From contig JAGKQI010000053.1 of the NCBI GenBank assembly GCA_018806915.1, positions 186,001 through 250,000 on the forward strand: a stretch of 64,000 nt of DNA, read 5' to 3'. The notes beneath the pieces are model-generated. The model was not told the origin of the DNA and did not search any database. It worked only from the letters and a program-made list of their open reading frames with translations. Positions 1-33,176 of this stretch are shown here, piece by piece. The translations under genes were made by a program, and so were the position numbers. Numbering within the stretch: position 1 is the stretch's first letter; every line of letters begins with the position of its first letter. The stretch is from Phytophthora colocasiae (taxonomy: Eukaryota; Oomycota; Peronosporomycetes; Peronosporales; Peronosporaceae).

Positions 1-1500
1 GCTGCACCACCTGCTGCTTCTGCAGCAGGAACAACAACCTCACCAGTGCCCACTAGCACTGCTGCTTCCAGCGGTTCGACAGAGAAGCTCTCTGTCACCG
101 ACTATCATGCTCTCCACAAGGAGAAGCAAGCGAAGAAGACTTCTTCCTCGTTAGCAGGGATCAAACACCCTGCTGTTCCTCTCAAAGAACTCTTTGGAGA
201 GGACTACGAAGACATCCTCGACTACGAGGAGGATGTCGAGGAGGGGGAAGTTGATGTCAAGGCTCCCGCTCCCGTGTCTTCGTCCGAAGACACGTCAGAC
301 CCACCCGTGGGATCTCGACGACCTCGTGATGAGGCCTCGGACGCTTCAAGCTCGAAGCGTCCGCGCAGTGATGATGAAGCGTCCCCCATGTCGAGGGCGC
401 TCACTGCCCCGCGCACTGATCCGCCAGTGCGCACACGATGGATGCCTACTGAGACAGAGATCCATGACCGGTTCGGTGCTAGTTCACCACCGAACCCGAT
501 ACTGTTGTACGCATGCAACAGTATCAACGACGACGACGTCGCCGTTGAGGTTGTCTTTGAGTCCGAGACTCAAAGACGCGACTACTATTTCGGGCTCTTC
601 CATGAGCTCCGATACTATGCAGCGAAGAAGACTTCGCGCAAGAGCAAAATGCCAGAGTGGCAGGCACTTTGTCAGTCGTGGAATGCCTTTGTTGATAACT
701 TCAACAAAGACCCGAAGGCGTATCGCGAGCGCGTTGCTGCGGCTCGCGATCGCTACTACACTTACACTACGCGTGGTAAGTGTGAACGCCTCCATGATCA
801 GTCCATGGAAGCGGGGATTCCATGTGCCGTTCCCTTTGGCACACCCTGTCCGTGTTGCCAACCCTTGGCAACACGCCTCAGCGAAAGGGATCTCCTGGGG
901 TACACGCTTGTCCGTGTACCCGATCACATCAAGGAGCTCCGTGGTCGTATTGTGCCACGCGGAGCTCCGAGTGCTGTGGCTGACCGCAGCACTCCTCGTG
1001 CAGGGCTTACCCCTGCAAGTTATGGTGGGCTTCGTACGCCCTCACCATTTCCGGAACGTCCTCCATCAGGACGTTCTGCGGCTCCCATGTATCTCGATGG
1101 GGAGGAAATCCTCTCCAACGAATACGAAAACGAACCCCTTGAGAGTTCGTTCTCTTATGAGCCACGATCCGCTCAACAATCCAGCGGATCGCTCCACGCG
1201 CGTCGCGCAACGGCGGCGGAGGGGGTGGGAACACTCCCTCCGCATGGTCAACGCTATGACCATGACGATCGTGCCCTGCACGATCGAGTTGCTGCGCTGG
1301 AGCAGACACAGAGCGCTGAGATAGCTGCTCTGAAGCAGGAGGTTCGTGTCCTCCGTGCTGAGGTCTGCGAGGCAGCTCAGACTGCCTCGAACCTCTCGTC
1401 CGATCTTGGGACGAGAGTGGGCCGGTTGATCGACCGTGTCGACGGTCTCGAAAAGGCCTTTCAGGCCTCTCGCACTACTCAGTCGGACTACCAACCCTAG
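1..1500 (+). CDS. Antisense ORF of family A (aORF-A), 5' end outside window
   Basis: The frame is open from base 1 to the TAG at 1498-1500, about 499 residues; the ATG lies left of the window. In copy A3 the equivalent ATG is at 46246. It runs opposite to the pol gene of its own element. The N-terminal part is Ser/Pro/Ala-rich with an acidic patch (EEDVEEGEVDV) and basic KRPR-type clusters. The middle holds a compact aromatic-rich stretch around residues 190-270 (motifs such as WQALCQSWNAFVDNF). The last ~85 residues form heptad-like coils (RVAALEQTQ, IAALKQEVRVLRAEV). From 1007 to 1500 it lies directly over the pol chromodomain on the other strand, and both frames remain largely readable. 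The arrangement recalls antisense genes of retroviruses such as HTLV-1 HBZ, but I see no homology and assign no function. A GTAAGT at 776-781 has no frame-compatible acceptor. Confidence 0.7.
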   Translation, partial: AAPPAASAAGTTTSPVPTSTAASSGSTEKLSVTDYHALHKEKQAKKTSSSLAGIKHPAVPLKELFGEDYEDILDYEEDVEEGEVDVKAPAPVSSSEDTSDPPVGSRRPRDEASDASSSKRPRSDDEASPMSRALTAPRTDPPVRTRWMPTETEIHDRFGASSPPNPILLYACNSINDDDVAVEVVFESETQRRDYYFGLFHELRYYAAKKTSRKSKMPEWQALCQSWNAFVDNFNKDPKAYRERVAAARDRYYTYTTRGKCERLHDQSMEAGIPCAVPFGTPCPCCQPLATRLSERDLLGYTLVRVPDHIKELRGRIVPRGAPSAVADRSTPRAGLTPASYGGLRTPSPFPERPPSGRSAAPMYLDGEEILSNEYENEPLESSFSYEPRSAQQSSGSLHARRATAAEGVGTLPPHGQRYDHDDRALHDRVAALEQTQSAEIAALKQEVRVLRAEVCEAAQTASNLSSDLGTRVGRLIDRVDGLEKAFQASRTTQSDYQP

Positions 1501-2009
1501 GTAGTCCGTGCTGCACGTACGGCTTCAACCGCCCGACGTAGAAGGTCGGGTGGAGCCTCATGCTGGACGGTATGTCCAGCTGGTACGCGTTGCCGTGCCG
1601 TTCAAGTACTTTGAACGGCCCAATGAATCGTAGAGCAAGCAAGCTTGCTCCAAAGTCAGACACTGCATGTCTAGGTGGGTTTTGTGTAGCTAACAAAACT
1701 AATGAACCCTTTTCGAATTCATTTGTGTTGCCTCTACCAACAGTATCAGCGTTCAGCTTCTGTCGATCGACAGAAGCTGCGATAGCATCCTGGACAAACC
1801 GTATGACGGCTTGTCTTCGCTGGACAAAGTCTAGCGCACTCGAGCTGACTCCTATCAGCTTGTCGCCTTTGTCAGCAGCAGGCCCTGCCTGCTCGCTATC
1901 ATCTCTCATGTCTGTGCCCGGCACAGACATTGCGCGCTCGTTCCTGCTCGAACGAGACGTCGCACGCGTCACCGCAGCTGATAGTGTGCTGCTATCAGTT
2001 GCATTCTGC

Positions 2010-2063
2010 GGTTGTTCGGACGCAACCGTAGATCCTGGTTGTTCGGACGCAACCGTAGATCCT
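2010..2063 (-). repeat. 27 bp tandem duplication in A1 integrase tail
   Basis: Two identical 27 bp units (2010-2036 and 2037-2063) duplicate nine residues (motif STVASEQP twice) in the linker after the integrase core. Copy A2 has one unit, so the duplication is private to A1. Confidence 0.85.
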
Positions 2064-2677
2064 CCCCCACTTAAGGAGGAAACTACCCCACCGAGCATGC
2101 TCGGCAATCGTGGATGCCTCATGGCATTCACGTAGAACGGTGTATGCCCCGTCGAGGCATGCACCGAGTTGTTGATGGCAAACTCTGCCATCGGCAAGCA
2201 CTCGCTCCAGTGCGGGAACGAGTGAGCGTAGCTCTTCAACGTGTCACCCAGTACACGGTTGACACGTTCGGTCTGTCCGTCCGTCTGCGGATGATCCGCA
2301 GTCGACATTGACAATCGTGAACCAAGAAGTGTAAACACTTCTTGCTAGAACCGCGCTGTGAAGCGTGGATGACACAATGTCGAGCGGCATGTCATGGTGT
2401 TTGAACACCATGTCAACAAACAGTCGCACAGTCTGCGCGGCTGTAACAGAAGACGGGACGGCAGCAAGATGAACCATCTTGCTGAATCTGTCCACAACGC
2501 TTGCTGTCAGGCGGAAGACCGAAGACAAAGTCCATGGACATGGACTGCCAACATTCCGACGGAGTCGGAAGTGACTGAAGAGGAGCCTGCGAGAACCGCG
2601 CAGGCTTCACGCGTTGACAAACCTCACAAGTACGTACGTACTCGCGAACCCACTTGTACTGGTGGTGCCAGTAGAAG

Positions 2678-2682
2678 TCACG
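2678..2682. other. Target-site duplication of B1 (right-hand copy after un-inverting)
   Basis: TCACG directly left of the B1 3' LTR is the reverse complement of CGTGA at 19894-19898, directly left of the B1 5' LTR. The uninterrupted target in A2 reads ACGCGTGACTTC at 12441-12452, so the duplicated bases are CGTGA. Confidence 0.8.
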
Positions 2683-5016: not shown

Positions 5017-6045
5017 GCAAGCCGACGTAGAACACAGGATGTGTTCGCATACGCTTTGGCAAGTCAAGCGTGTATGCCAGGCCCTTCTTGGCCACGACCG
5101 TAAATGGTCCGATGAAGCGCGGACGCAATTTCGTCTTAAAGACGCTCGACACTGCATGTGTAGGTAGGCTCTTAGCGTTTAATAAAACGTGGTCACCGAC
5201 CTTGAACTCCCACATGTTGCTTCTACCTTTTGCATCAGCTTGTTCCTTCTGAACGTCTTGGCTTTCAGCCATCGCGTCACGCACACGGCGTAAGACGCTA
5301 AGCCTCATCGAGAGGAAGTCATCGACTTGTTTACGTACAGCAGAAGGGCTGATATCAGCAAGATCGGCGTCGAGCGACGGCGCAGCCTCTCCCCCACCAA
5401 GCCCAAGGCTACCGCGTGGCGGAGTGAGCGGGACGCGCGGATGCGCAAGGCCGTTCACGTAGAACGGGGTGAAGCCTGTCGAGGCATGCACCGCATTGTT
5501 CATTGAGAACTCAACGAGAGGGAGCATAGCGCTCCAACGCTTCGGCGTTTCAGCGCATACGCTGAGGAGGATGTCCTCCAGGACGCGGTTCACGCGTTCG
5601 GTCTGACCGTCGGTCTGCGGATGGTCCGCCGTGGACATGTCCAGTCGAGTGCCCAGCACCTTGAAGACGGACGTCCAGAAGTGACCCGTGAAACGGGGGT
5701 CTCGATCCGAGACAATGGTCTCTGGCAGCCCATGCTGGCGGAAGACCCGATCGATGAAGATCGTCGCTGTACCAGCGCCATCGACGGTGTCCGGCACAGC
5801 CGCTAGGTGAGCCATCTTGCTCAGACGGTCAACAAAGACCACCACGCCCGTGTTGCCTGCCGAGTCCTTCGGCAGGCCAAACACAAAGTCCATACTTATG
5901 GACTGCCAACACCCAGTGGGTACAGGCAAGCTCGCCAAAGGCGCACCGCATGCGGCGAGGGTTTAACCCGCTGGCACGTCTCTCACGTGCGCACATATGT
6001 GCTGACCCACTTGTACATCTTCGGCCACCAGTACATGGAGCTCAC
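4398..6045 (-). pseudogene. B1 integrase and chromodomain
   Basis: Minus-strand integrase: zinc region (CETCQRVK), catalytic core with the Asp, Asp and Glu contexts all present (SISMDFVFGL, IVSDRDPRF, HPQTDGQTERVN), a GPY/F module (RFIGPFTVVAKKG), then a Ser/Pro-rich linker and a chromodomain (QYLVKWRGYPHSQNS). Breaks: a small shift near 5945 between the zinc region and the core, a 1 nt loss near 4570-4576 inside the chromodomain that is shared with B2, and a B1-only TGG to TGA in the chromodomain. The pol frame ends at 4398. The 619 bp from 4398 to 5016 is also covered by aORF-B. Confidence 0.85.
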
Positions 6046-8006
6046 CGAGCCGTAGGTCTTCTCGCGACCGAGGTGGCGGCCTCGTAGAGGATACGGTACT
6101 TCAGATCCTCATCGTGAGGAACCACCACACGTGGTGGGTCATCCTGACCCGTGCTGTAGTACAGCAGACCGCCTTCCAGGCTGTAGCGTTGGAGTCTCGC
6201 CTTTAGGCGTCGTGACAGAGTCACCTTTGAGTCCTTAAACTCATCGCTCCCTAGAGCTTGAAGCAGCGCGACACAGGAGTCGTCCTGAGCGTACGCTGCT
6301 CGAACCATGTCCGTCACGGACGATGTCACCGAGGTGACATGAGATAAATCATAGTCCGGGCGACGTGATAACGCGTCAGCGAGGACGTTCTGCCTGCCAG
6401 GCTTGTACTTCACCTCGAAGTTATACTCCGCAAAGAAGGAGAGCCATCGGGCCATCCTCTGCGAGAGGTGGGGCGACTGCGTCGCGGTGCGTAGCGACGC
6501 ATGATCCGTGTAGATCACGAATGGCTTGGAGCCGAGCAGGTGAACCCTGAATTTGACGAGAGCGTACTTCATCACAAGTAGCTCCTTGTCATGAACTGGA
6601 TAGTTCTTCTCAGCAGCCTTGAGCTGCCGAGACTCAAACACAATGACGCGTTCGCGCCCTTCGGCGTCCGCTTGTAGCAAAGCACTGCCGATGGCAAAGT
6701 CCGAGGCGTCACAGACGACGATGAACGGACGATCGGGGTCTGGCAACGCCAGTATCGGTGCCTGAAGCAGGCTATCCTTGATACAAGTGAACGCATTCTC
6801 GTGCTCGGCACGCCATACCCATTCGGCATCCTTCTTAAGGAGATCCGTCAGTGGCCGAGCCAACTCAGCGTAGTTCTCGCTATACTTGTGCAAGTAGTTG
6901 GCCAAGCCCAGCCACTTACGCAAGTCCTTCTGGTTCAAGGGAACCGGCCAATCCACAATGGCCTTGACCTTTGCTGGATCAGCACGAAGGCCATGCTTCC
7001 CAATGAAGCACCCTAGGAAGGGGATTTCTTCCGCGCCAAAGACGCACTTGTCTGCGTTGGCGTACAGTTTGTTCGTGCGCATGCACTCGAGCACTGCTCT
7101 CACGTGTTCCACGTGTATCTCGACATCAGACTTCCGACTGTGGACGAACACATCGTCAAAGTACGTCTGTGCGAATGCCCGTAGAGGCCTGAACAACTGC
7201 GTCACTAGACGATTGAACGTTGCAGGCGCATTCGACAGCCCTTGGGGCATGACGAGCCACTCCCAGAGCATACCGCTCGGGGTGCTCACCGCTGTAAGCG
7301 GAATATCACTGGCTCGCATGAGGAGCTGATAGTAGCCATCGACTAAGTCGAGCGCACTGTACATGGTGCAACCCACCATGTTGTTCTGAACACCATCCTT
7401 CCTAGGAATCGGCGTCTGCGCCGGAATTGTGGCAGCGTTAAGCTTATTAAAAGCGTGAACGATACGCCACTTGCCATTCGGCTTTCTGACACAGAACGTT
7501 GGCGCGGAGTGCGGAGACTTGCTCTCGCGCACGAGACCCGCCGCGTGCTTCGCACGGAAGAAGGCGTCAATGACGTCGCATTGCTCTTTAGGAAGAGGCC
7601 ACTGCCGGGTCACGCAGTATTTAGTTCCGGGAACTAAGTCGATCTCGTGACGAACGCCTCGGTCAGGAGGCAGGCCACTCGGTGGTTCCTTCGAGACAAC
7701 GTCTCTATATTCCTTCAGCAAGGAGTAGAAGTGATCCGAGGGATTCTTGAGGATCTCCGATCCGTTCCTGGCGTTCAACGCCTTCTTGACCTCGGTCAAG
7801 ACGGACTCGTCAACGAGGGACGATGAGTTTAACTCCTCTTCAGGTCGGACGATGACCACCTCAGCGAGTTCGCCAGCCTTTAAGGCATCGCCAAAGTCGG
7901 CGAACGACATCTCCTCTAGCTCAAGGAGCTTGTCAATACTCGGCACTGCCGTCCACTCCATCAACCAGAGTGTATAGCTTCCCACAGCCCTCCTGTGCGT
8001 TGACAC
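6042..8006 (-). CDS. B1 reverse transcriptase and RNase H segment
   Basis: A long open minus-strand segment of Ty3/Gypsy pol. RT motifs in order: HEIDLVPGTKYCVTRQWPLP, the motif A region SALDLVDGYYQL, the MPQGLSNAPATFNR region and the catalytic YFDD box (QTYFDDVFVHS). RNase H follows with its acidic residues in VCDASDFAIG, KELLVMKYAL and TDHASLRTA. The frame ends at 6042 after YEAATSVARR, where sequence expected before the integrase HHCC finger is missing. B2 has the same lesion. About 25 bp is also missing near 7945 at the junction with the protease linker. The segment is open but the polyprotein is not continuous. Confidence 0.85.
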   Translation of the reverse strand: MSTHRRAVGSYTLWLMEWTAVPSIDKLLELEEMSFADFGDALKAGELAEVVIVRPEEELNSSSLVDESVLTEVKKALNARNGSEILKNPSDHFYSLLKEYRDVVSKEPPSGLPPDRGVRHEIDLVPGTKYCVTRQWPLPKEQCDVIDAFFRAKHAAGLVRESKSPHSAPTFCVRKPNGKWRIVHAFNKLNAATIPAQTPIPRKDGVQNNMVGCTMYSALDLVDGYYQLLMRASDIPLTAVSTPSGMLWEWLVMPQGLSNAPATFNRLVTQLFRPLRAFAQTYFDDVFVHSRKSDVEIHVEHVRAVLECMRTNKLYANADKCVFGAEEIPFLGCFIGKHGLRADPAKVKAIVDWPVPLNQKDLRKWLGLANYLHKYSENYAELARPLTDLLKKDAEWVWRAEHENAFTCIKDSLLQAPILALPDPDRPFIVVCDASDFAIGSALLQADAEGRERVIVFESRQLKAAEKNYPVHDKELLVMKYALVKFRVHLLGSKPFVIYTDHASLRTATQSPHLSQRMARWLSFFAEYNFEVKYKPGRQNVLADALSRRPDYDLSHVTSVTSSVTDMVRAAYAQDDSCVALLQALGSDEFKDSKVTLSRRLKARLQRYSLEGGLLYYSTGQDDPPRVVVPHDEDLKYRILYEAATSVARRPTAR

Positions 8007-9003
8007 TTGACGTCACGGACGACTCAGACGCAGAGCGTCTCGCCCATAGGGCCTTACGACGTCGTCGTCTAGCCGACGAACGTCCACTCGACGGAGTACG
8101 TGCCGCCGCACAGGTTTCGGCCCCTTCAGGCCCAGTGTCAGTGACACTCTGCGATCCACTCGGTCGACGACCGATGTCGCTCAGCGGAGTACGTGCCGCT
8201 GCACAATCAATGACCGTAGCTGGTCCAATGTCAGGGACATTCAGCGATCGACTTGGTCCAAGACCAGCATCGCTCGGCGGAGTACGTGCCGCCCCACAGG
8301 GATTACGTGGGCTCTGCCCACACGTTGACTCACTGTCAACCAGCGCTACGCGCTCAATAGGACTGCGGTCCCCACACTCGGTGCTGTCCACTAGCTCGGA
8401 CACACCGACCTCCAGCATCATAGCCGATTCGGCTCGATGCTCGCGCCAATAGCGCTTCTGCTTCCTAGCAGAGGTGGGTTCATGACTCGCCAAAGCTCCA
8501 CTAGGAGAGAAGTGCGTTGCACCTAAGGTCTTCGACCTCCAATCGATCCAGGGCTCGTGGCGCTCCAGCCACGCCATACCAAGGATGAGGTCGTACCTCG
8601 AATCCAGGTCCAAGACCAAGCAGCGTTCCACGCTGTCAAAGTCCAGGAATTTCAGCCGCAGGTCCATGACGACCTTGGCTGCCGTGACACGGACGCCCGT
8701 CGCTAGACGGACAGTGACGGTGTCACCTCTTCGCGCTCGAAGCGCCTCAGCATATTGCTGACTATCCTCAACGGTGGAGCGTCTGACATAGTTGCCAGAC
8801 GCCCCCGAATCGATCAACACGATCCATGGCTTGTCAAAGCCCTTCACGTCCACCTGGACGACCAGCAAGCCCTGCTTGCTCACCCGTTCCGTGTTCAAGA
8901 GCACGGAGCTCTTCGGGGCTGAGCCCCAGTGCCTCTCACGCACTGCAGAACTCAGTTCTTCCCCAGTAGACCGCCCCGCGTCTACTGGGAGCCGGCGTTT
9001 CCC
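7933..9003 (-). CDS. B1 protease and PR-RT linker
   Basis: A retropepsin-like aspartic protease with active-site motif LIDSGASGNYV and the flap-side motif LILGMAWLERHEPW. It sits in the -1 frame relative to gag and begins at the slippery site at 8997-9003. After the protease comes a long linker containing three ~39-residue repeats and then a basic RRRRRK stretch. The frame ends at 7933 because of a deletion. Use of Ser rather than Thr after the catalytic Asp is common in such elements. Confidence 0.8.
   Translation of the reverse strand, partial: GKRRLPVDAGRSTGEELSSAVRERHWGSAPKSSVLLNTERVSKQGLLVVQVDVKGFDKPWIVLIDSGASGNYVRRSTVEDSQQYAEALRARRGDTVTVRLATGVRVTAAKVVMDLRLKFLDFDSVERCLVLDLDSRYDLILGMAWLERHEPWIDWRSKTLGATHFSPSGALASHEPTSARKQKRYWREHRAESAMMLEVGVSELVDSTECGDRSPIERVALVDSESTCGQSPRNPCGAARTPPSDAGLGPSRSLNVPDIGPATVIDCAAARTPLSDIGRRPSGSQSVTDTGPEGAETCAAARTPSSGRSSARRRRRKALWARRSASESSVTSSVNAQEGCGKLYTLVDGVDGSAEY
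8065..8330 (-). repeat. Three ~39-residue repeats in the family B PR-RT linker
   Basis: On the minus strand the unit reads approximately C-A-A-A-R-T-P-x-S-x-x-G-x-x-P-S-x-S, followed by V-x-D-x-G-P. Three diverged copies are visible here and again in B2 at about 23535-23790. DNA units are ~115 bp and contain short inverted repeats such as AGTGTCA/TGACACT. Confidence 0.7.
8962..9003 (-). promoter_or_regulatory. -1 ribosomal frameshift signal, gag to protease, B1
   Basis: The minus strand carries the heptamer GGGAAAC (8997-9003) in the phase required for -1 slippage (G GGA AAC), a 7 nt spacer, then a 10 bp stem CCCAGTAGAC/GTCTACTGGG (8962-8971 with 8980-8989). The gag stop lies inside the stem. 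Protease is in the -1 frame. The same arrangement is found in B2 and B3. Confidence 0.75.
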
Positions 9004-9501
9004 TGGGCAGAGCCCAAAGCGGGACCCGCGGCAGGGTTGCGGCCACTTTGGCCGGCGCGCTCTTTGCGCAGAGGGCAGTTGGGCCTCAGGTGTGAGGGAC
9101 TGCCGCATGTATAGCACCGGCGGGTGCTCATACGCTGCACCGCAGCTCGTAGCTCAGCTACCTCATCTTCAGCATAGCTGAGGTCCATGGGCTCAGGTCC
9201 ACCGGACCCTGTGCTGATAGCACCGACCCTCGACAACTTAAAGTTGTGCTCGGCATTCAATGCCACGCTGACAGCATCTTCGAAGCTGCGGGGGTTCTGA
9301 CGGAATGCCTCCGTCCTGGCCACGCCAGCTCTCAGACCTTCCATAAAGATAGTCACGGTGACCACCTCAGGTAGAGGATCGGCAGCCATGCCGGCGATGA
9401 GCGTGCGCAGCTCTTGGACATAGTCCACCAGATCCTTCTTGTGACCGCACGCGATACGCCTGGTTAGGCGGAGCAAACACTTGCGTGAGCTTGGCCTTTA
9501 G
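8982..9501 (-). pseudogene. B1 gag, C-terminal part
   Basis: The C-terminal half of Gag: capsid-like helices ([37 protein letters not shown]) and one zinc knuckle CYTCGSPSHLRPNC (CX2CX4HX4C). About 25 bp is missing near 9445 relative to B3. The N-terminal half is at 20369-20775, across the inversion breakpoint. Confidence 0.8.
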
Positions 9502-11010: not shown

Positions 11011-13157
11011 AGACGCCGATACCGCGAAAAGATGTTATCATCGATTCGATGGCCTTGAGCACTATCTTCAGTGCTCTAGATCTGCGTGATGGATTCTACC
11101 AAATCCTCATGCGTGAGAGGGACATCCCTCTCACAGCGGTAAGCACTCCAAGCGGTATGCTTTGAGAGTGGCTCGTCATGCCGCAGGGACTTAAGAACGC
11201 CCCTGCGACGTTCAATAGATGCGTGACACATCTATTGCGCTCGGTGCGCGACTTCGCACCGAGTTACTTCAACGACGTGTTCGTCCACAGCCGGGCTGTG
11301 AACGGGAAGACGGACATTGAGATGCACAAGGTGCATCTCCGGAAGCTGCTAGAGCTTATGAGGAAACATAAGCTCTATGCGAACCTGAAGAAGTGTATCT
11401 TCGGGGCGAGCGAGATACCCGTGCTGGGGTGTCTCGTGGGGAAAGACGGCGTGCGCCCTGACCCAGAGAAGGTCAGAGTGATCAATGAATGGCCCACGCC
11501 ATCCAATGTGAAGGAACTGAGGCAGTTCCTTGGGCTTGCCACGTACTTGTGCAAGTACGTGGACAACTATGCGGGCAAGATTCGCCCGTTGTCACAGCTT
11601 CTCAAGAAAGAAGCTGAGTGGATTTGGACGACCAAGTGCGAGGATGCATTCGGTGCAGTCAAGCAGGGCTTGACTGAAGCGCCGATCTTGGCCGTGGCAG
11701 ACCAAGATCGTCCATTCCACGTAGTGTGCGATGCATCCGACTTTGCAATCGGATGTGCATTGGTGCAACACAATCACGAAGGGCGTGATCATGTAGTCTA
11801 CTATCAATCGCGTCAGCTGAAGCCAGCTGAGCGTAACCATCCCGTACATGACAAGGAGCTCCTTGCCATGAAGTATGCACTCGCAAAGTTCCGAGTGTAT
11901 CTACTTGGGAGTAGACCGTTCGTGGTCTATACAGACCACGCATCATTGCGGACGGCGATTAAGTCGCCGCACATCTCGCAACGTATGGCGAGATGGTTGT
12001 CCTTCTTCGCGGAGTACAACTTCCGGGTGGAGTACAAACCCGGAAGACTCAATGTAGTGGCCGACGCGTTATCGCGTCGACCTGACTATGCGGAGACGGT
12101 CGACGCCAACGCTGTTGGCGTCGTGAGGACAAGTGTGCCGTCGTCAACGTTGATTGACGACGTGAAGAACGCGTATGCAAGGGATGCAGACGCGAAGGGG
12201 CTGCTGGAGTTCCTCACAGCACCTTCCGACGTGGCACGTCGGAAGCTAACCCCTCATCTTCGAGCTCGTGTACACCGCTATCGTGTACACGAAGGTCTAC
12301 TGTTGTATAGTGCAGTAGACGACAATGCGGATCGCATTGTCGTTCCGAATGATCATGACCTCCGATTGAGGATCACGTTCGAGTATCACGATGCCCCCAC
12401 GGCAGGGCATCCGGGTCGTGAGAAGACATACACTCTTCTCACGCGTGACTTCTACTGGCACCACCAGTACAAGTGGGTACGCAAGTACGTACGTGCTTGC
12501 GAGGTTTGTCAACGCGTTAAGCCTGCGCAGTTCTCGCAGGCTCCTCTTCAATCACTACCGACTCCGTCGGAGTGTTGGCAGTCCATGTCCATGGACTTTG
12601 TCTTCGGTCTTCCGCCTGACAGCAAGCGGAGGACGGGCATCGTTGTCTTTGTGGACCGATTCAGCAAGATGGTTCATCTTGCTGCCGTCCCGGCTACTGT
12701 TACAGCCGCGCAGACTGCGCGACTGTTTGTTGACATGGTGTTCAAACACCATGGCATGCCGCTCGACATTGTGTCGGACCGTGACCCACGCTTCACAGCG
12801 CGGTTCTGGCAAGAAGTGTTTACACTTCTTGGTTCACAATTGTCAATGTCGACTGCGGATCATCCGCAGACGGACGGACAGACCGAACGTGTCAACCGCG
12901 TACTGGGTGACACGCTGAAGAGCTACGCTCACTCGTTCCCGCATTGGAGCGAGTGCTTGCCGATGGCAGAGTTTGCCATCAACAACTCGGTGCATGCCTC
13001 GACAGGGCATACACCGTTCTACGTGAATGCCATGAGGCATCCACGATTGCCGAGCATGCTCGGCGGGGTAGCTTCCTCCTTAAGTGGGGGGGATCTACGG
13101 TTGCGTCCGAACAACCGCAGAATACAACTGATAGCAGCACACTATCAGCTGCGGTGA
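11011..13157 (+). pseudogene. A2 RT, RNase H and integrase core
   Basis: RT motifs IFSALDLRDGFYQIL, MPQGLKNAPATFNR and the active-site box, which reads YFND instead of YFDD, so a catalytic Asp is Asn. RNase H shows VCDASDFAIG, KELLAMKYAL and TDHASL. The integrase zinc finger (YHDAPTAGHPGREKTY, CEVCQRV) and core Asp, Asp, Glu contexts (SMDFVFG, SDRDPRF, QTERVNR) are complete. A TGG to TGA stop occurs at 11163-11165 in RT, and a 1 nt change in a G-run near 13090 shifts the frame after the core. The same YFND occurs in A1. This stretch shows an exceptional density of perfect hairpins. Confidence 0.85.
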
Positions 13158-14033
13158 CGCGTGCGACGTCTCGTTCGAGCAGGAACGAGCGCGCGATGTC
13201 TGTGCCGGGCACAGACATGAGAGATGATAGCGAGCAGGCAGGGCCTGCTGCTGACAAGGGCGACAAGCTGAAAGGATTCAGCTCGGGTGCGCTAGACTTT
13301 GTCCAGCGAAGACAAGCCGTCATACGGTTTGTCCAGGATGCTATCGCAGCTTCTGTCGATCAACAGAAGCTGAACGCTGATAATGTTGGTAGGGGCAACA
13401 TAAATGAATTCAAAGTGGGTTCATTAGTGTTGTTAGCTACACAAACACCTGCCTAAACATGCAGTGTCTGATTTTGGAGCAAGCAAGCTTGCTCCAAGAT
13501 TCATTGGGCCGTTCAAGGTACTTGAACGGCACGGCAACGCGTACCGGCTGGACATACCGTCCAGCATGAGGCTCCACCCGACCTTCTACGTCGGGCGGTT
13601 GAAGCCGTACGTGCAGCACAGACTACCTAGGGTTGGTAGTCCGACTGAGAAGTGCGAGAGGCCTGGAAGGCCTTCTCGAGACCGTCGATATGGTCAACCA
13701 ACCGGTTCACTCTCGTCCCAAGACCGGACGAGAGGTTCGAGACAGTCTGAGCTGCCTCGCAGACCTCAGCACGGAGGACACGAACCTCCTGCTTCAGAGC
13801 AGCTATCTCAGCGCTCTGTGTCTGCTCCAGCGCAGCAACTCGATCCCCTCCGCTGCCGTTGCGTGACGCGCGTGGAGCGATCCGCTGGATTGTTGAGCGG
13901 ATCGTGGCTCATAAGAGAACGAAATCTCAAGGGGTTCGCGTCTTTGAGTCTCGGACTCAAAGGCAACCTCACTGGCGACGTCGTCGTCGTTGATACTGTT
14001 GCATGCGTACAACAGTATCGGGTTCGGTGGTGA
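13158..14033 (+). pseudogene. A2 integrase tail and deleted chromodomain
   Basis: The tail follows in other frames: linker, GPY/F module (RFIGPFKVLERHG), Ser/Arg-rich linker, and only the first half of the chromodomain (IRWIVERIVAHKR). An internal deletion of several hundred bp at ~13950 joins it to sequence that lies antisense to the N-terminal part of aORF-A. The chromodomain and the aORF-A core were therefore lost together. Confidence 0.75.
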
Positions 14034-14544
14034 ACTAGCACCGAACCTGTCATGGATCTCTGCCTCAGTAGGCATCCATGGTGTGCGCACTGGCGTATCA
14101 GTGCGCGGGGCAGTGAGCGCCCTCGACATGGGGGACGCTTCGTCATCACTGCGCGGACGCTTCGAGCTTGAAGCGTCCGATGCCTCAACACGAGGTCGTC
14201 GAGATCCCACGGGTGGGTCTGACGTGTCTTCGTCCGAAGACACGGGAGCGGGAGCCTTGACATCAACCTCCCCCTCCTCGAGGATGTCTTCGTAGTCCTC
14301 TCCAAAGAGTTCTTTGAGAGGGACAGCAAGATTCTTAATCTCTGCTAGAGAAGAAGACTTCTTCTTCTTCTCGTGCTTCTCCTTATGGAGAGCATGGTAC
14401 TTGGTGACAGAGAGTTTCTCTGTCGGACCGCTGGAAGCAGCAGTGCTAGTGGGCACTGCTGAGGTCGTTGTTCCTGCTGCAGGCAGCAGGTGAGGCTTGC
14501 GCGTCCGCAGTAGCGGACGGAGACGTGGGCGTTGGCGAGTCCAT
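13624..14544 (-). pseudogene. aORF-A, A2 copy, internally deleted
   Basis: The minus-strand ATG is at 14544 (start motif MDSP). After a shift near 14470 the acidic and basic N-terminal region is intact (EEGEVDVKAPAPV, SSKRPRSDDEASP). The central aromatic core is deleted between ESETQRRE and PLEISFSYE, and the coil is out of frame. Bases 13624-14033 lie over the remnant pol end. Confidence 0.65.
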
Positions 14545-14645
14545 TGCGAAATGAACTCGGATTTCTCGTGGGAACTTGACGGTCTTGTCAAGTTCTGTTG
14601 ATTGACGTATCGAGACCGATACGTCAAATCTTAACGGGGGGATGG

Positions 14646-14697
14646 ATACCTCGGCGCCAGTGTCCAGGAGCAAGATCGCTCTTTCATGATTGATCTT
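14646..14697 (+). other. 52 bp of family D protease sequence trapped between polypurine tract and 3' LTR of A2
   Basis: In A3 the polypurine tract ending GGGGGGATGG directly touches the LTR start TGTAACGG. Here 52 extra bases separate them. Together with the preceding GATGG they match 57762-57818 (D1 protease gene, antisense to its coding strand) over 57 of 57 bases. Five bases (GATGG) are common to both at the left edge. Confidence 0.9.
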
Positions 14698-15157
14698 TGT
14701 AACGGGGTTACACGTACAAGTGGTTGTACCACTTGTAACTCTAACAGTTAGGATAACTGTTAGAGGTTGGAAATGGGCCTCAGACCTTGGTGTGCTGTAC
14801 ACACCAAAGGATACCTGGGCGAACCACATTATTGGGTGGTTCGTGTGCATTTGTGCATATTATTGGTAGAAAGTAACGGATTTCTACCAATCACTGAGCA
14901 GAGTTTCTGCCAACCACACGTTGGCAGACCCTTTAGAAATAGATTACAAACAGTTTTAGGAGGTCCATAATTGGCTTATGCCAAATTCAATAACAGTTCT
15001 CATTTTACGGTATTTTGCAGTTTAATTTAGTTATATTTGATTTAATTATACTTATTTAAATAAGTATACTTAAATTAAGTCTATTCTAATTGCACGCTTC
15101 CTCATATACCTAAGCGCGCGTGTACGCCACCTAATAGGTCTAGGTAGACCCATTACA
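14698..15157 (+). repeat. A2 3' LTR (family A, 460 bp)
   Basis: Starts TGTAACGGGGTTACACGTAC and ends CCCATTACA; the reverse-complement copy is 45678-46144. It is packed with perfect hairpins, for example CTCTAACAGTTA/TAACTGTTAGAG (14739-14765), TACAAGTGG/CCACTTGTA (14715-14737) and ATTGGTAGAAA/TTTCTACCAAT (14862-14891). The central 15000-15100 stretch is AT-rich. Confidence 0.9.
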
Positions 15158-15487: not shown

Positions 15488-16337
15488 AGATCCAGAGTGG
15501 GAAGCTCTCCAAAGACTTTCACAAGTCATTGGAGAGGCAGCAGTAGCTACGATGCTTCGTACGCTATCGCCGACAGAGCAACATGGTGTTGCTCTGGGGT
15601 ACATTGTTAAGGAGCAACGAGATGTTGCTGCCTCGGTGGCTTCCCCGAAGCCACGCGTTGAGTCGTTGAAACTCCACGTGAGTACCTACACGGAGAAGGA
15701 GGACGAGACCCTCCTTCGTTGGCTTGTCGAACTTGACACAGCCGTTGCGGCTCGACGTATCGTCGATCCGATGTCGAAGGTCGCGTTCGCCATGTCATGT
15801 CTTGGCGGACGTGCGGCCTATGGGCGCCGACTCTCGGATCCTACGTGCTTCAGCACGTACGAGGTGTTCAAAGAGGAACTCAAGCTTGCGTTTGAGCCTC
15901 CGAAGAACGAGTTCAGATCGAGAGCGGAGTTTCTCGATCTGCAGCAGGGCAAGGATGATGTTCACACCTTTGCCCAGCGTGCTCGATACTTGGTATCGAA
16001 CATAGTGGCCAACCCGATCGACGACGCGACCAAGGTCGTCACGTTCATGAAGGGACTAAGAGATGGTCCCGTCAAGACGTATCTCTTCCGAGAGTACCCG
16101 AATACTCTCGAGGAGGCGATCAGCCTTGCAATGCAAGAGGAGTTTAGCCGGCGTCAAGCTAAACTCCATGCGAACGCGCCGAAGCCGGCGCGTCCTGTTG
16201 TGAAGACGGAAGGTCCGGAGCCTATGGACCTCTCGAGTGCTACGACTGCTGGTCAACAACAGCGTAGGAACGGCAAGGCACGGGGAGTCCTACTGGTAAT
16301 GCAGTCTCGCGCGACGAACTCGGACACGCGACGTTGA
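15488..16337 (+). pseudogene. A1 gag, N-terminally truncated
   Basis: A capsid-like Gag of ~280 residues: DPEWEALQRLSQVIGEA, an SKVAFAMSCLGGRAAYG region, EFLDLQQGKDDVHTFAQRAR, the Ty3/Gypsy-type FMKGLRDGPVKTYLF helix, then EGPEPMDLSS. No zinc knuckle is visible before the stop at 16335-16337, unlike family B. The reading frame also runs 29 bases into the LTR-C scrap, which I take as chance. The authentic start is represented by the fragment at 25825-25943. Confidence 0.8.
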
Positions 16338-16342
16338 AGGCT

Positions 16343-16948
16343 GCTGCCCCCAGCGAGAAGGTTTCTCGCTGCGAGATGCAAGATGACAAGCCAGGCCTTG
16401 TCATCCTGAACGTAATGTCGAAGAGAGCGAACTCTCTTCGTGCCCTAGTGGACTCGGGCGCGTCGAACAACTTTGGTTGACAGGGAAGTCTTCGAAGGCT
16501 TCACTTCGAAGAGACCGACACGCCTCGCGGCGTGTTGGAGGTGCGGTTAGCAACAGGTGCCACCGTAAGTACTGAGAAGCGCGTAGTCCGTGTGCGCTTC
16601 TCTTACAAACGAAGGACGTTTGCAGAAGATCTTATCGTCTTGGATCTAGACGATAAGCTCGACTTGGTATTAGGCATGCCGTGGCTTGCACGGCATGACC
16701 CGGTGATCAACTGGGAGAAGCGTACGCTCGTACGCTTCAACAACACATGCGCGACAGAGAGCGATGGCCCTGTCAGTGCTGCACATGCACCGGCCGGTGC
16801 ATGTGAATCCCCAGTTGAGACAGCAGCGGCCGCCGCTGCCTCCGATCGCCGCCGGCGACCATCAACGACTCCGAGAGTCGTTGTGAGAAAATGTGTGTCG
16901 ACTCAGAAATCTGAGCCGAAGGGTCGCGGTCACATGAGTGATGGTTAG
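16343..16948 (+). pseudogene. A1 protease
   Basis: An aspartic protease in the -1 frame relative to gag: ALVDSGASNNF at about 16443-16475, then an in-frame TGA at 16475-16477, then VRLATGATVSTEKRVVRV and LVLGMPWLARHDPVINW. No slippery heptamer as clear as that of family B was found at the gag end. Confidence 0.75.
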
Positions 16949-17094
16949 GTGAATGTGAATTACATGACGCGTAAACATCTGAATGATGTTTGTCACATGA
17001 GTGATGGTCAGGTGAATGCGATTCACCTGAGAGAAGGTAACATACCGGTATCCTTGGAGGTACTTCAAGCCCCCAAGGGTCGCGCCGACGACGT

Positions 17095-17365
17095 CGCGTC
17101 AACTCTGGGAGTTGACGAAATAAATAAAATTCGGGGGACCGAAAGGCGTGCGTCCACTGGCGCGTCGCTGCTAATTCTGGGAACTAGCGATCGCGCATAA
17201 GCTCCGGGAGCTGATGATGCGTGTACAGGCGAACATTCGCTGTTAGTTCGGGAACTAGCGATCGTGCGTCAGCTCTGGGATCTGACGATACGTGTACAAG
17301 CGATCACTCGCTAGCGCAGGAAGCTAGCAAGAGCACGTCGACTCCGGGAGTCGACAATGCGGTTG
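17095..17365 (+). repeat. Array of stem-loops in the A1 PR-RT linker
   Basis: A run of short perfect stems with near-identical loops of the CTCTGGGA/CTCCGGGA type, for example TCAACT/AGTTGA, GTCAG/CTGAC and GTCGACtccgggaGTCGAC, spaced ~40 bp apart and each followed by GACGA-like bases. Stem sequence varies while the loop is kept. Reading frames in 16949-17800 are broken and no domain is recognised there. Confidence 0.6.
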
Positions 17366-17800
17366 CTTCATCCGTAGTGGCGGGTGAAGTTGCTCCATCC
17401 GTAGGAGCGGATGGAGGCGCAGCGGTTCAGGGAACCGACTGCGCGGCAGGAGGTGCTGGCGGTTGCAAACGCCCAGCACCCGAAGAACCTGCGTGCTCAC
17501 GTGCAGCGGTGCTGCACGCGATGAGCGACACACAAGCAGTGCTTGGATGTGCGAGTCAGCGGATTCCATCCGCTGACGATTGCGATAAAGTCCCGTCCAA
17601 GGTGGGATGCCTTGGACGTGGAGCGCCTGGAGCTGAGCTCCATGGCAGAGCTTTGCGAGTCCCAGTCCGTGACTGTGGAGAGTGTGTCTGCAGGACAGAC
17701 ACCGAGTGTCAAGGCGTTGAACGTCTTGACACGAACAGATACTGCGGTACAGTATCAGAGCGCGCGGCACCAGCTCAGTGAGCTGTGTGAGTCTTAGTCC

Positions 17801-19898
17801 GTGACTGAGGAGGGTGTATCTGCAGGGCAGACACCGAGTGTCGAGACGTTGAACGTCTTGACACGTACTAGTACTGGGTTACAGTACCAGAGGATGCGGT
17901 TGGAGAATCCGCCGACGTGTGCGTCGGTGTTGACCGCACTTCCAACGATGAGTTGGAAGCGCTTCGCGCGGGACTTGTACGATGGACGCATCGAACAAAG
18001 TTGCATTCTCTCGGATATCGAGAGAGTGGATCGCGAAGCCGAGAAGCTGAAGCAGCTCATCGTCGATGGCATCACTGAGGGCGATGACCCCCTCAGTGCG
18101 AAAACCAAGAAGCAACGCTTCGAGGAGCAGAGTTGGGACTCATTGAAGTCGAGTCCCATTCTGCGGAAGTACAAGGATGTACTCCCGGACGAGATTCCTT
18201 CGGAGCTTCCGAAGGACAAGGGCGTACAGCACGAGATTGATCTCGTGCCGGGCACGAAGTACTGTGTTACACGGCAGTGGCCACTGCCGCGTGAACAAGT
18301 TCAAGCGATCGACAACTTCTTTGAAAGTCATCGTCCTGCAGGTCAAGTGCGGGAATCGAAGTCCCCGCACAGTGCCCCAACGTTCTGTGTTAAGAAACCA
18401 CAGGGCGGCTGGCGCATCGTTCATGCGTACAACAAGTTGAACGATGCGACGATACCGGCGCAGACGCCAATACCGCGAAAAGATGTTATCATCGATTCGA
18501 TGGCCTTGAGCAATATCTTCAGTGCTCTAGATCTGCGTGATAGATTCTATCAGATCCTCATGCGTGAGAGGGGCATCCCTCTCACAGCGGTAAGCACTCC
18601 AAGCGGTATGCTTGGGAGTGGCTCGTCATGCCACAGGGGCTTAAGAACGCTCCTGCGACGTTCAATAGATGTGTGACACATCTATTGCGCTCGGTGCGCG
18701 ACTTCGCACCGAGTTACTTCAACGACGTGTTCGTCCACAGCCGGGCTGTGAACGGGAAGACGGACATTGAGATGCACAAGGTGCATCTCCGGAAGCTGCT
18801 AGAGCTTGTGAGGAAGCATAAGCTCTATGCGAACCTGAAGAAGTGCATCTTCGGGGCGAGCGAGATACCCGTGCTGGGGTGTCTCGTGGGGAAAGACGGC
18901 GTGCGCCCTGACCCAGAGAAGGTCAGAGTGATCAATGAATGGCCCACGCCATCCAATGTGAAGGAACTGAGGCAGTTCCTTGGGCTTGCCACGTACTTGT
19001 GCAAGTACGTGGACAACTATGCGGGCAAGATTCGCCCGTTGTCACAGCTTCTTAAGAAAGAAGCTGAGTGGGTTTGGACGACCGAGTGCGAGGAGGCATT
19101 CGGTGCAGTCAAGCAGGGCTTGACTGAAGCACCGATCTTGGCCGTGGCAGACCAAGATCGTCCATTCCACGTAGTGTGCGATGCATCCGACTTTGCAATC
19201 GGATGTGCATTGGTACAACACAATCACGAAGGGCGTGATCATGTAGTCTACTATCAATCGCGTCAGCTGAAGCCAGCTGAGCGTAACTATCCCGTACATG
19301 ACAAGGAGCTCCTTGCCATGAAGTATGCACTCGCAAAGTTCCGAGTGTATCTACTTGTGAGTAGACCGTTCGTGGTCTATACAGACCACGCATCATTGCG
19401 GACGGCGATTAAGTCGCCGCACATCTCGCAACGTATGGCGAGATGGTTGTCCTTCTTCGCGGAGTACAACTTCCGGGTGGAGTACAAACCCGGAAGACTC
19501 AATGTAGTGGCCGACGCGTTATCGCGTCGACCTGACTATGCGGAGACGGTCGACGCCAACGCTGTTGGCGTCGTGAGGACAAGTGTGCCGTCGTCAACGT
19601 TGATTGACGACGTGAAGAACGCGTATGCAAGGGATGCAGACGCGAAGGGGCTGCTGGAGTTCCTCACAGCACCTTCCGACGTGGCACGTCGGAAGCTAAC
19701 CCCTCATCTTCGAGCTCGTGTACACCGCTATCGTGTACACGAAGGTCTACTGTTGTATAGTGCAGTAGACGACAATGCGGATCGCATTGTCGTTCCGAAT
19801 GATCATGACCTCCGATTGAGGATCACGTTCGAGTATCACGATGCCCCCACGGCAGGGCATCCGGGTCGTGAGAAGACATACACTCTTCTCACGCGTGA
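17801..19898 (+). pseudogene. A1 RT, RNase H and start of integrase
   Basis: RT (HEIDLVPGTKYCVTRQWPLP, IFSALDLRDRFYQIL), then a 1 nt deletion near 18612 that shifts the frame at PSGML. The remainder is open: MPQGLKNAPATFNR, YFND in place of YFDD, RNase H with VCDASDFAIG, KELLAMKYAL and TDHASL, and the histidine half of the integrase zinc finger (YHDAPTAGHPGREKTY). It is cut at LLTRD by the B1 LTR. Motif A also has Arg in place of Gly after DLRD. Confidence 0.85.
19894..19898. other. Target-site duplication of B1 (left-hand copy)
   Basis: CGTGA adjoins the B1 5' LTR. The partner is TCACG at 2678-2682 in reverse orientation, displaced by the inversion. Confidence 0.8.
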
Positions 19899-20368: not shown

Positions 20369-20775
20369 ATGGAGCCAGAAGCATACGCTCACTTGACTCC
20401 GAGTCAGCGGGACACGCTTAACAAGCTTACGTCCTTGCTGGGCCCTGAAGGTATGGCACACCTTGCGTCGCAAGGGCCGGAGGCCGTCAACGCGCGCCTC
20501 GAGGCATTTGCCTCGTACGAAAACGCTTTCGTCGAGCACATTCAGCGGAATGTAAAAGGGGTTACCCCCGCTCCGAGAGCTAAGCCCGTCACGCTCACGA
20601 AGGAGAGAACCTCCTGTTGTGGACCCGAGAGGTCGAAATGGCAATAGGGGCCACCATGCTCCAGTTGGAAGGCCAACGCGTGGCCTTCGCCGTTTCTAAG
20701 CTCGAAGGGCGAGCACGAGAATGGGCCTTGACGTCTGGGACGTCGGTAGAAATGGCCTTCCCCACTTGGGGTGAG
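20369..20775 (+). pseudogene. B1 gag, N-terminal part
   Basis: ATG at 20369; [19 protein letters not shown] as in B3. A ~24 bp deletion after ~20595 removes the KTFHGHEG region and shifts the frame. Ends at the inversion breakpoint. Confidence 0.8.
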
Positions 20776-21475
20776 GGCTGACATCAGCAAGCTCGGAGTT
20801 GAGCGACGGCACAGCCTCTCCCCCGCCAAGCCTAAGGCTACCGCGAGGCGGAGTGAGCGGGACGCGCGGATGCGCAAGGCCGTTCACGTAGAACGGGGTG
20901 AAGCCTGTCGAGGCATGCACCGCATTGTTCATGGAGAACTCAACGAGAGGGAGCATAGCGCTCCAACGCTTCGGCGATTCAGCGCATACGCTGCGGAGGA
21001 TGTCCTCCAGAACGCGGTTCACGCGTTCGGTCTGACCGTCGGTCTGCGGATGGTCCGCCGTGGACATGTCCAGTCGAGTGCCCAGCACCTTGAAGACGGA
21101 CGTCCAGAAGTGACCCGTGAAACGGGGATCTCGATCCGAGACAATGGTCTCAGGCATCCCATGCTGGCGGAAGACCCGATCGATGAAGATCGTCGCTGTA
21201 CCAGCGCCATCGATGGTGTCCGGCACAGCCGCTAGGTGAGCCATCTTGCTCAAACGGTCAACAAAGACCACAACGCCCGTGTTGCCTGCCGTATCCTTCG
21301 GCAGGCCAAACACGAAGTCCATACTCATGGACTGCCAACACCCAGAGGGTACAGGCAAGCTCGCCAAAGGCGCTGCCGCATGCGGCGAGGGTTTAACCCG
21401 CTGACACGTCTCGCACGTGTGCACATATGTGCTGACCCACTTGTACATCTTCGGCCACCAGTACATGGAGCTCAC
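20776..21475 (-). pseudogene. B2 integrase core
   Basis: Zinc-region half (MYWWPKMYKW, CETCQRVKPS), core Asp, Asp and Glu contexts intact (SMSMDFVFGL, IVSDRDPRF, HPQTDGQTERVN), ending at the right inversion breakpoint after ELADVS. The histidine half of the finger is separated by the same lesion as in B1 (frame ends YEAATSVARR at 21472). Confidence 0.85.
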
Positions 21476-23964
21476 CGAGCCGTAGGTCTTCTCGCGACCG
21501 AGGTGGCGGCCTCGTAGAGGATACGGTACTTCAGGTCCTCATCGTGAGGAATCACCACACGTGGTGGGTCATCCTGACCCGTGCTGTAGTACAGCAGACC
21601 GCCTCCCAGGCTATAGCGTTGGAGTCTCGCCTTTAGGCGTCGTGACAGAGTCACCTTTGAGTCTTTAAACTCATCGCTCCCTAGAGCTTGGAGCAGCGCG
21701 ACACAAGAGTCGTCCTGAGCGTACGCTGCTCGAACCATGTCCGTCACGGACGATGTCACCGAGGTGACATGAGATAAATCATAGTCCGGGCGACGTGATC
21801 ACGCGTCAGCGAGGACGTTCTGCCTTCCAGGCTTGTACTTCACCTCGAAGTTATACTCCGCAAAGAAGGAGAGCCATCGGGCCATCCTCTGCGAGAGATG
21901 AGGCGACTGCGTCGCTGTGCGTAGTGACGCATGATCCGTGTAGATCACAAACGGCTTGGAGCCGAGCAGGTGAACCCTGAATTTGACGAGAGCGTACTTC
22001 ATCGCAAGTAGCTCCTTGTCATGAACTGGATAGTTCTTCTCAGCAGCCTTGAGCTGCCGAGACTCAAACGCAATGACGCGTTCGCGCCCTTCGGCGTCCG
22101 CTTGTAGCAAAGCACTGCCGATGGCAAAGTCCGAGGCGTCACAGACGACGATAAACGGACGAGCGGGGTCTGGCAACGCCAGTATCGGTGCCTGAAGCAG
22201 GCTATCCTTGATACAAGTGAACGCATTCTCGTGCTCGGCACGCCATACCCACTCGGCATCCTTCTTAAGGAGATCCGTCAGTGGCCGAGCCAACTCAGCG
22301 TAGTTCTCGCTATACTTGTGCAAGTAGTTGGCCAAGCCCAGCCACTTACGCAAGTCCTTCTGGTTCAAGGGAACCGGCCAATCCACAATGGCCTTGACCT
22401 TTGCTGGATCAGCACGAAGGCCATGCTTCCCAATGAAGCACCCTAGGAAAGGGATTTCTTCCGCGCCAAAGACGCACTTGTCCGCGTTGGCGTACAACTT
22501 GTTGGTGCGCATGCACTCGAGCACTGCTCTCACGTGTTCCACGTGTATCTCGACATCAGACTTCCCGTGCTCAGCACGACTGTGGACGAACACATCGTCA
22601 AAGTACGCCTGTGCGAATGCCCGTAGGGGCCTGAACAACTGCGTCACTAGACGATTGAACGTTGCAGGCGCATTCGACAGCCCTTGGGGCATGACGAGCC
22701 ACTCCCAGAGCATACCGCTCGGGGTGCTCACCGCTGTAAGCGGAATATCACTGGCTCGCATGAGCAGCTGATAGTAGCCATCGACTAAGTCGAGCGCACT
22801 GTACATGGTGCAACCCACCATGTTGTTCTGAAGAACATCCTTCCTAGGAATCGGTGTCTGCGCCGGAATTGTGGCAGCGTTAAGCTTATTAAAAGCGTGA
22901 ACGATACGCCACTTGCCATTCGGCTTTCTGACACAGAACGTTGGCGCGGAGTGCGGAGACTTGCTCTCGCGCACGAGACCCGCCGCGTGCTTCGCACGGA
23001 AGAAGGCGTCAATGACGTCGCATTGCTCTTTAGGAAGAGGCCACTGCCGGGTCACGCAGTATTTAGTTCCGGGAACTAAGTCGATCTCGTGACGAACGCC
23101 TCGGTCAGGAGGCAGGCCACTCGGTGGTTCCTTTGAGACAACGTCTCCATATTCCTTCAGCAAGGAGTAGAAGGGATCCGAGGGATTCTTGAGGATCTCC
23201 GATCCACTCCTGGCGTTCAACGCCTTCTTGACCTCGGCCAAGACGGACTCGTCAACGAGGGACGACGAGTTTAACTCCTCCTCAGGTCGAACGATGACCA
23301 ACTCGGCGAGTTCGCCAGCCTTCAAGGCATCGCCAAAGTTGGCGAAGGACATCTCCTCTAGCTGAAGGAGCTTGTCCACACTTGGCAAGTCGTCCAGCAG
23401 GACACTGCCTTCGGCACTGCCGCCCACTCCATCAACCAGAGTGTATAGCTGCCCACAGCCCTCCGGTGCGTCGGCACTTGACGTCACGGATGACTCAGAC
23501 GCAGAGCGTCTCGCCCGAAGGGCCTTACGACGTCTTCGCCTAGCCGAAGAGCGTCTACTCGACGGAGTACGTGCCGTCGCACAAGTTTCGGCCTCTTTCG
23601 GCCCAGTGTCAGAGACACTCAGCGATCCACTCGGTCGACGACCGATGCCGCTCAGCGGAGTACGTGCCGCTGCACAATCAATGACCGTAACAGGTCCAGT
23701 GTCAGAGACACTCAGCGATCGACTTGGTCCACGACCAGTATCACTCGACGGAGTACGTGCCGCCCCACAGGGGTTACGTGAGCTTTGCCCACACGTTGAC
23801 TCACTGTCAACCAGCGCTACGCGCTCAACAGGACTGCGGTCCTCGCTATCGGTGCTTTCCACTAACTCGGACACACCGACTTCCAGCATCATAGCCGACT
23901 CGGCTCGATGCTCGCGCCAATAGCGCTTCTGCTTCCTAGCAGAGGTGGGTTCATGACTCGCCAA
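21472..23964 (-). CDS. B2 RT and RNase H segment, with PR-RT linker
   Basis: From the linker repeats (CGAARTPSSDTG) through RT (HEIDLVPGTKYCV, SALDLVDGYYQL, AYFDDVFVHSRAEHG) to RNase H (VCDASDFAIG, KELLAMKYAL, TDHASL). Single in-frame stop TGA at 21799-21801, where B1 has TTA (LADALSRRPD). After it the same frame continues to 21472. It is the best preserved family B RT in the window; its active-site YFDD is intact. Confidence 0.85.
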
Positions 23965-28795: not shown

Positions 28796-28813
28796 TGGTG
28801 CGCGTGCCCGGAT
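28796..28813 (+). promoter_or_regulatory. Putative primer-binding site of C1
   Basis: TGGTGCGCGTGCCCGGAT starts two bases after the 5' LTR, where a match to a tRNA 3' end (CCA) is expected. The tRNA is not identified. Confidence 0.55.
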
Positions 28814-33160: not shown

Positions 33161-33176
33161 AGAGTTATGTGTTCTA

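Follow-up and report, generated by a model that had tools for sequence, protein, structure and literature searches.

The window, a 64-kb stretch of the genome of Phytophthora colocasiae, carries pieces of three families of element, A, C and D (Table 1). Family A is a high-copy, young Ty3/Gypsy LTR retrotransposon with a chromodomain. Compared with the reference copy, L018, its first copy in the window is missing sequence between 13845 and 13936, and the match of its second copy stops at 19898, where another repeat starts (19899-20775). The original prediction took a set of reversed pieces for a further family, B; these are A in the opposite orientation (1-2682 and 45678-48054), 91-97% identical to it, and since the two make one family they are not two independent cases of the pattern described below. 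Within the internal region of A lies a direct repeat (17648-17760 and 17780-17892 in the window, 86% identical), whose counterpart in L018 is at about 3500-3900 (element 2200-2570); similar hairpin motifs recur there.

Table 1. Features of the window, in window coordinates; percentages are identities to the reference copy L018, and IR denotes a perfect inverted repeat.
Feature	Position	Strand	Basis
Family A, reversed copy (the former family B), hairpin-saturated	1..2682	-	pol 91.1%, 3' region 95.9%
Putative antisense gene region of A	8-1724, 13401-14645, 46145-47894		match to L018
Family C, related Ty3/Gypsy, few perfect hairpins	5345..9212	-	RVT_1, RT_RNaseH; 5 IRs in 1971 nt pol
Family A copy 1, 3' half (end of reverse transcriptase, RNase H, integrase, 3' region) and LTR, hairpin-saturated	11011..15157	+	pol 98.1%, 3' region 97.1%/94.2%, LTR 96.3%
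Open frame of A copy 1: end of reverse transcriptase, RNase H, integrase; 26 IRs	11166..13157	+	Pfam RVT_1, RT_RNaseH, Integrase_H2C2, rve
Stretch first described, 18 IRs, arms 9-11, loops 10 or less	11213..12831	+	IR scan
Part of the putative antisense gene region, pol-LTR interval of copy 1	13936..14645	-	94.2% to L018 3' region
LTR of A copy 1, hairpin-dense (14739-14765, 14862-14891)	14698..15157	+	96.3% to L018 LTR
Family A copy 2: gag, protease, reverse transcriptase, RNase H, start of integrase	15489..19898	+	88.0-97.6%; Retrotrans_gag, RVT_1, RT_RNaseH
Family C, second copy, few IRs	20775..24685	-	2 IRs in 2175 nt
Family D element, hairpin excess slight or absent	28772..38839	+	0-2 IRs per ORF
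Family A, second reversed piece (3' region and LTR), hairpin-saturated	45678..48054	-	3' region 94.8/96.9%, LTR 94.2%

A search of the genome (92.5 Mb in 105 contigs) returned 1028 first-look candidate copies of A; 40 of these were scored, and all are 98-100% identical to A pol. Twenty copies were fetched. Eleven are bounded by two clear LTRs; the other nine (five in which no LTR pair was found, four partial) were left out of the density set and retained in the variant counts. The bounded copies are 7.8-8.3 kb long (8,256 nt for L018) and their LTR pairs 95.9-100% identical, above 99% in nine of the eleven; the LTR start TGTAAC is printed in eight and the end ATTACA in ten, and a 5-bp target duplication is readable in eight. 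The domains of L018 are spread over several frames in the order Retrotrans_gag, RVP_2, RVT_1, RT_RNaseH, Integrase_H2C2, rve, SH3_Tf2-1, Chromo, with RVT_1 partial and under the cut-off in L018, above it in the window copy; neither copy has a Pfam match to RVT_3. Among the 120 matches listed, the nearest to A protein come from Phytophthora species, with proteins at 87-88% identity among them and 88% for the best. The pol of D (33090-36869) has RVT_3 as an extra RNase H-like domain beside its Gypsy RNase H; Chronos and other oomycete Ty3/Gypsy elements (PMC5348765) resemble A in their chromodomain and D in this added RNase H, and the main text of that paper makes no mention of hairpins, palindromes or antisense.

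The original prediction was that short perfect inverted repeats saturate this element, even inside conserved coding sequence. All 17 arm pairs it placed between 11213 and 12830 proved to be perfect inverted repeats, their arms 9-11 bp and their loops 1-10 nt long; one that it had missed (12020-12046, 9-bp arms, 9-nt loop) brings the total for this stretch to 18 (arm at least 9, loop at most 10), and its estimate of about 0.1 expected by chance is of the right order of magnitude. The four pairs that it named elsewhere are also present, making 21 of 21. Its extension of the pattern to gag and the LTRs holds at 15574, 14739 and 14862; the fourth pair, at 20065, is real but belongs to the adjoining repeat, outside the A match. 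The hairpin observation is thus confirmed, and it is stronger than first described.

Scanning the whole window yielded 211 perfect inverted repeats (arm at least 8, loop 0-12), whereas five dinucleotide shuffles, each done within 1-kb blocks, gave 11, 8, 10, 12 and 9. The excess is concentrated in three blocks (1-2682, 11011-19898 and 45678-48054): the A segments, 13,947 nt in all, hold 170 of the 211 (12.2/kb), and the remaining 50,053 nt hold 41 (0.82/kb). Codon-preserving shuffles, proposed with the first description and made here 200 times for each window ORF, do not match the observed counts in A: its pol frame has 26 inverted repeats where the shuffles average 0.84 and reach 4 at most (18 with arms of at least 9, shuffle mean 0.27, maximum 3), and its gag has 8 (mean 0.26, maximum 2). 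The 11 window ORFs outside A have 0-5 apiece. Counts in C and D are low, as had been claimed; one C pol frame, with 5 repeats, also exceeds its shuffles (mean 0.81, maximum 4). Chance and base composition are excluded by the two kinds of shuffle, which also leave the A pattern unexplained by codon use or protein sequence.

Nor is the pattern a property of the genome at large, given the 0.82/kb outside A in the window and the 0-2.5/kb in the flanks of the 11 bounded copies, inside which density is 13.9-15.1/kb. All six regions of L018 (LTRs, gag/protease, pol, chromodomain region and antisense region) are dense, at 11.5-19.0/kb. A richness in repeats of every kind is likewise excluded: 7.8 kb of L018 has 118 inverted repeats, 10 direct and 2 mirror repeats, and one shuffle of it 2, 0 and 1, respectively; the 10 direct repeats may be local tandem repeats.

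The geometry of the hairpins is restricted. Arms in A are mostly 8-11 bp, with a peak at 9 bp and a maximum of 13 bp, and 37 of 155 hairpins have loops of 0-2 nt. Sorted by loop length, L018 has 72, 41 and 9 inverted repeats in the classes 0-5, 6-10 and 11-15 nt (five shuffles: 0.6, 0.4 and 0.2); in the classes 16-20, 21-30, 31-40 and 41-60 nt, where it has 1, 1, 1 and 6 (shuffles: 1.4, 1.2, 1.0 and 3.0), no clear excess is seen. With loops up to 14 nt the hairpins span about 23 nt, the middle half of them covering 21-25 nt and 90% of them 19-29 nt, a spread narrower than is obtained by permuting the loops (p=0.0008); chance repeats (n=1993) show no such link of arm and loop. Arm length also falls with the GC content of the arm (rho -0.26, p=0.004, n=115; -0.23, p=0.015 after allowing for local GC), as expected if stability matters; the corresponding rho for chance inverted repeats is -0.003 (n=1307), and E1, a relative of A described below, shows no link (rho 0.13, n=41). 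Spacing between hairpins is random (mean 44, SD 40), which excludes a regular tiling.

To compare arms with loops, variants were collected from 24 sequences, the 20 copies and the four window pieces, sites with fewer than 12 letters being excluded and, in pair counts, pairs whose majority state is not Watson-Crick. Shared variants per site number 0.025 in arms, 0.054 outside hairpins and 0.127 in loops. Over positions 1-7797 of the L018 element, the ratio of shared to single variants is 0.30 in arms, 0.49 outside and 0.91 in loops when hairpins are picked from L018 (arm vs loop p=1e-6, arm vs outside p=0.004), and 0.40, 0.48 and 0.84 when they are picked from any copy (arm vs loop p=2e-4, arm vs outside not significant, p=0.16). 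Conservation of arms relative to loops is thus solid; relative to the outside it is not. Compensatory changes across copies, another check proposed at the outset, are few: a single arm pair has both of its sides altered, whereas breaks confined to one side number 48 shared and 199 single, and some broken arms are present in many copies. Single variants in the 24 sequences are mostly G to A (222) and C to T (166), a dominance that may reflect methylation or a mutational defence.

Relatives of A in the same genome carry the pattern in graded form. E1, whose pol protein is 54-58% identical to that of A, is intermediate: four 2.25-kb pieces of its pol hold 8-10 inverted repeats apiece, a 9.8-kb stretch around one copy holds 44, and its frame of 1632 aa holds 23, where 100 shuffles average 1.91; C (pol protein 59% identical to A, 2 inverted repeats in each of three 2.25-kb pieces) and D are low. 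A search for intermediate subfamilies recognised no new family among the 55 of 4702 candidates scored, the best rows being 81-87% in the reverse transcriptase part and at places resembling those of A; a scan of viral contigs gave 5 pattern matches and no relative.

Between pol and the 3' LTR of A is an antisense open frame of 552 aa (L018:7462-9117, minus strand). It has 493 matches at E<=0.001, and the 120 listed, nearly all Phytophthora hypothetical proteins, are 43-88% identical over 33-91% of its length; no Pfam domain was found in the protein. The frame is open over at least 500 aa in 10 of the 20 copies, and it holds 30 inverted repeats against a mean of 1.16 in 200 codon-preserving shuffles. 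Its matches point to a conserved gene. Antisense ORFs lie behind pol in other families too (C, 3185-4873, plus strand; D, 39647-42577, minus strand, 976 aa; E1, copy L036, 476 aa); the A, E1, C and D proteins have no mutual blastp match at 1e-3. An antisense gene as the sole cause of the hairpins is excluded by D, with its 976-aa antisense frame and few hairpins.

We give about even odds to an explanation in which selection on the A lineage has favoured short, local pairing within each of the two strands, perhaps as a shield against RNA silencing. Somewhat unlikely in our judgement, though the main rival, is a mutational drive that requires no function of the hairpins: when the element's reverse transcriptase, or a host polymerase acting on it, changes template at a fold-back, one arm would be rewritten from the other, and the hairpins would persist through the conversion of breaks. 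Template switching does act on A, where it flips loops: of the 101 hairpins whose loop is at least 2 nt long and can be inverted, 10 occur among the 24 sequences with the loop in both orientations. At one loop of copy L026 the 5' LTR reads GGA and the 3' LTR TCC; because both LTRs are made from one template, the inversion most simply took place after insertion, in chromosomal DNA, rather than during reverse transcription. Such a drive would also suit the strictly Watson-Crick, strand-symmetric character of the hairpins, the 122 perfect stems (arm at least 8) in L018 as compared with 31 one-mismatch stems (arm at least 9 including the mismatch), and the frequency of loops of 0-2 nt.

There are precedents. 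Nematomorph mitochondrial genes contain perfect palindromes for which conversion is favoured by the authors because imperfect repeats are not in excess (PMC6649704); like A they have many perfect inverted repeats and few imperfect ones in conserved coding sequence, but they are mitochondrial and reach 284 bp, whereas the arms of A stop at 13 bp and lie in a nuclear retrotransposon, LTRs included. Template switching at short inverted repeats in yeast genes is reported to homogenise arms and, in wild yeast, to invert the spacer between perfect arms (PMC8604942), and it has been linked to RNA hairpins (PMC8794818); A resembles these two systems in loop or spacer inversion at perfect arms, AA to TT flips included, and differs in its density, which is element-wide and not scattered, and in having no recognised arm homogenisation. 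Among top-ranked results in open-licence papers we found no report of a hairpin-saturated retrotransposon, which is weak evidence of absence.

The arms themselves speak against the mutational drive. Of 190 distinct multi-base clusters of changes, 11 were picked out as exact local reverse-complement copies by a filter that demands eight extra matching bases and at least two changes, and so misses short arm copies and single-base corrections; annotated loops account for ten of the 11 and the centre of a shorter stem for the other, and none falls in an arm, so that no arm copying or homogenisation was recognised within the reach of the filter. Inserted copies are thus decaying without visible correction, with the single both-sided change set against the 48 shared breaks and with broken arms in many copies, and this speaks against conversion maintaining the hairpins today, not against template switching having produced them. 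A drive of this kind would also have to stop at 13 bp, trade arm length against GC and pass largely over family C. Of the two causes originally put forward, template switching that perfects quasi-palindromes therefore stands as regards loop inversion, not as regards the arms; selection for structure is the better supported, through the conservation of arms relative to loops, the trade with arm GC, the narrow span and the fixed residues described below, except in its plainest form.

That form, selection for an ordered structure of the sense RNA only, on the scale of the whole element and serving packaging, stability or regulated reverse transcription, we consider decidedly improbable. In the ordered RNA structure of RNA viruses, a folding energy excess runs along the whole genome. 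A likewise shows a predicted excess along the whole element: minimum free energy per 200-nt window, relative to 20 shuffles of each, is in excess by 36.9% (sense) and 46.7% (antisense) in A, 13.3% and 18.6% in C (20775-24685), 4.9% and 4.3% in D and 1.5% in another 8 kb, and z in A (mean -5.5 sense, -6.8 antisense) is below -2 in 39 of 41 sense windows (95%) and in all 41 antisense windows. Loops are purine-rich (59%, 53% outside), and C and E1 too are predicted to be less accessible than their shuffles; that C, whose predicted accessibility is below that of A and the lowest of the sets tested, is structured without perfect hairpins argues against hairpins as the only route to a closed RNA. 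A differs from the viral structures in the size of its excess (37-47%), in its perfect short Watson-Crick stems on both strands, in being a retrotransposon, and in showing no preference for G.U pairs, which an RNA strand would tolerate. Arm variants give G.U and A.C pairs equally (shared 18 vs 17, single 64 vs 64); the 31 one-mismatch stems of L018 include 6 G.U and 12 A.C, and the pairs flanking stems show no G.U excess (17 G.U, 14 A.C). The arms are therefore not kept through sense RNA alone; moreover the sense and antisense strands have equal absolute predicted energy, and the excess is the larger in antisense.

Selection at the DNA level, on cruciforms or on folded minus-strand cDNA (through protection of single-stranded cDNA or effects on chromatin), fits the equality of the strands, the strict Watson-Crick pairing, the inclusion of the LTRs and the loops of 0-2 nt just as two-strand RNA selection does, but arms of 8-11 bp are short for cruciform extrusion and we hold this the least probable of the readings considered.

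The hairpins appear to be older than the present copies. In a comparison of pol with proteins picked by hand from the 120 listed matches to A protein, 16 as ingroup and 9 as outgroup, residues under arms match the A-type proteins of other Phytophthora more often than residues outside arms do (0.893 vs 0.851) and the outgroup families less often (0.586 vs 0.666); by circular shifts of the arm mask the contrast has p=0.0017, ingroup and outgroup taken singly p=0.066 and p=0.027. The simplest reading of these alignments is that residues were altered to suit hairpins in an A-type ancestor and then held. This suggests that the hairpins are old and common to several Phytophthora species, and if so they should occur in those species. 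Five of 22 E1 hairpins (arm at least 7) share their centre with an A hairpin to within half a base, where a rough hand estimate expects about 0.5, as does one of five in C; the excess may come partly from conservation of the protein. Some of these shared hairpins have covarying pairs; in the one over the motif LSKMVHLA, E1 has G-C as its outer pair where A has C-G.

Under selection for pairing of both strands, the whole A sequence would have been recast as short perfect Watson-Crick hairpins standing close together, which selection acting on the element lineage would maintain for the local pairing they give to both complementary strands; template switching on chromosomal copies would be a side effect, flipping loops and perhaps contributing to the making of the first stems. 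Sense transcripts, antisense transcripts and cDNA would each fold within about 25 nt, and this self-folding would make it harder for them to anneal with one another or with small RNAs. A stem of no more than 13 bp should serve Dicer poorly as a substrate, and the element would be partly shielded from host silencing. We prefer a shield to other functions because of that stem length, because both strands are involved, and because Gypsy elements of P. infestans have small RNAs in both senses mapped along them (PMC3522703), the longer small-RNA class of that species arising mainly from transposable elements (PMC3804510). Against it, inverted repeats are reported as the strongest sources of small RNAs in P. 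infestans (PMC3804510), and the few hairpins of D, despite its long antisense ORF, also count against this explanation. So do the predicted low accessibility of C, which has no such hairpins, the missing link of arm length and GC in E1, the random spacing, and the loss of significance for arms against the outside when hairpins are picked from any copy. A more specific version is unlikely. Phytophthora has three main small-RNA classes, two of them of 21 and 25/26 nt; A would consist of self-folding units of about 21-26 nt matching these sizes, so that both strands and the small RNAs derived from them fold, a silencing shield extending over the whole sequence, written by recoding of the proteins and kept across Phytophthora species.

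Family A offers a natural, high-copy system in which to ask whether perfect hairpins in coding DNA are copying errors or are selected, with a built-in comparison in the graded hairpin density of A, E1 and C in one genome. It also allows one to ask whether mobile elements escape RNA silencing by structure alone.
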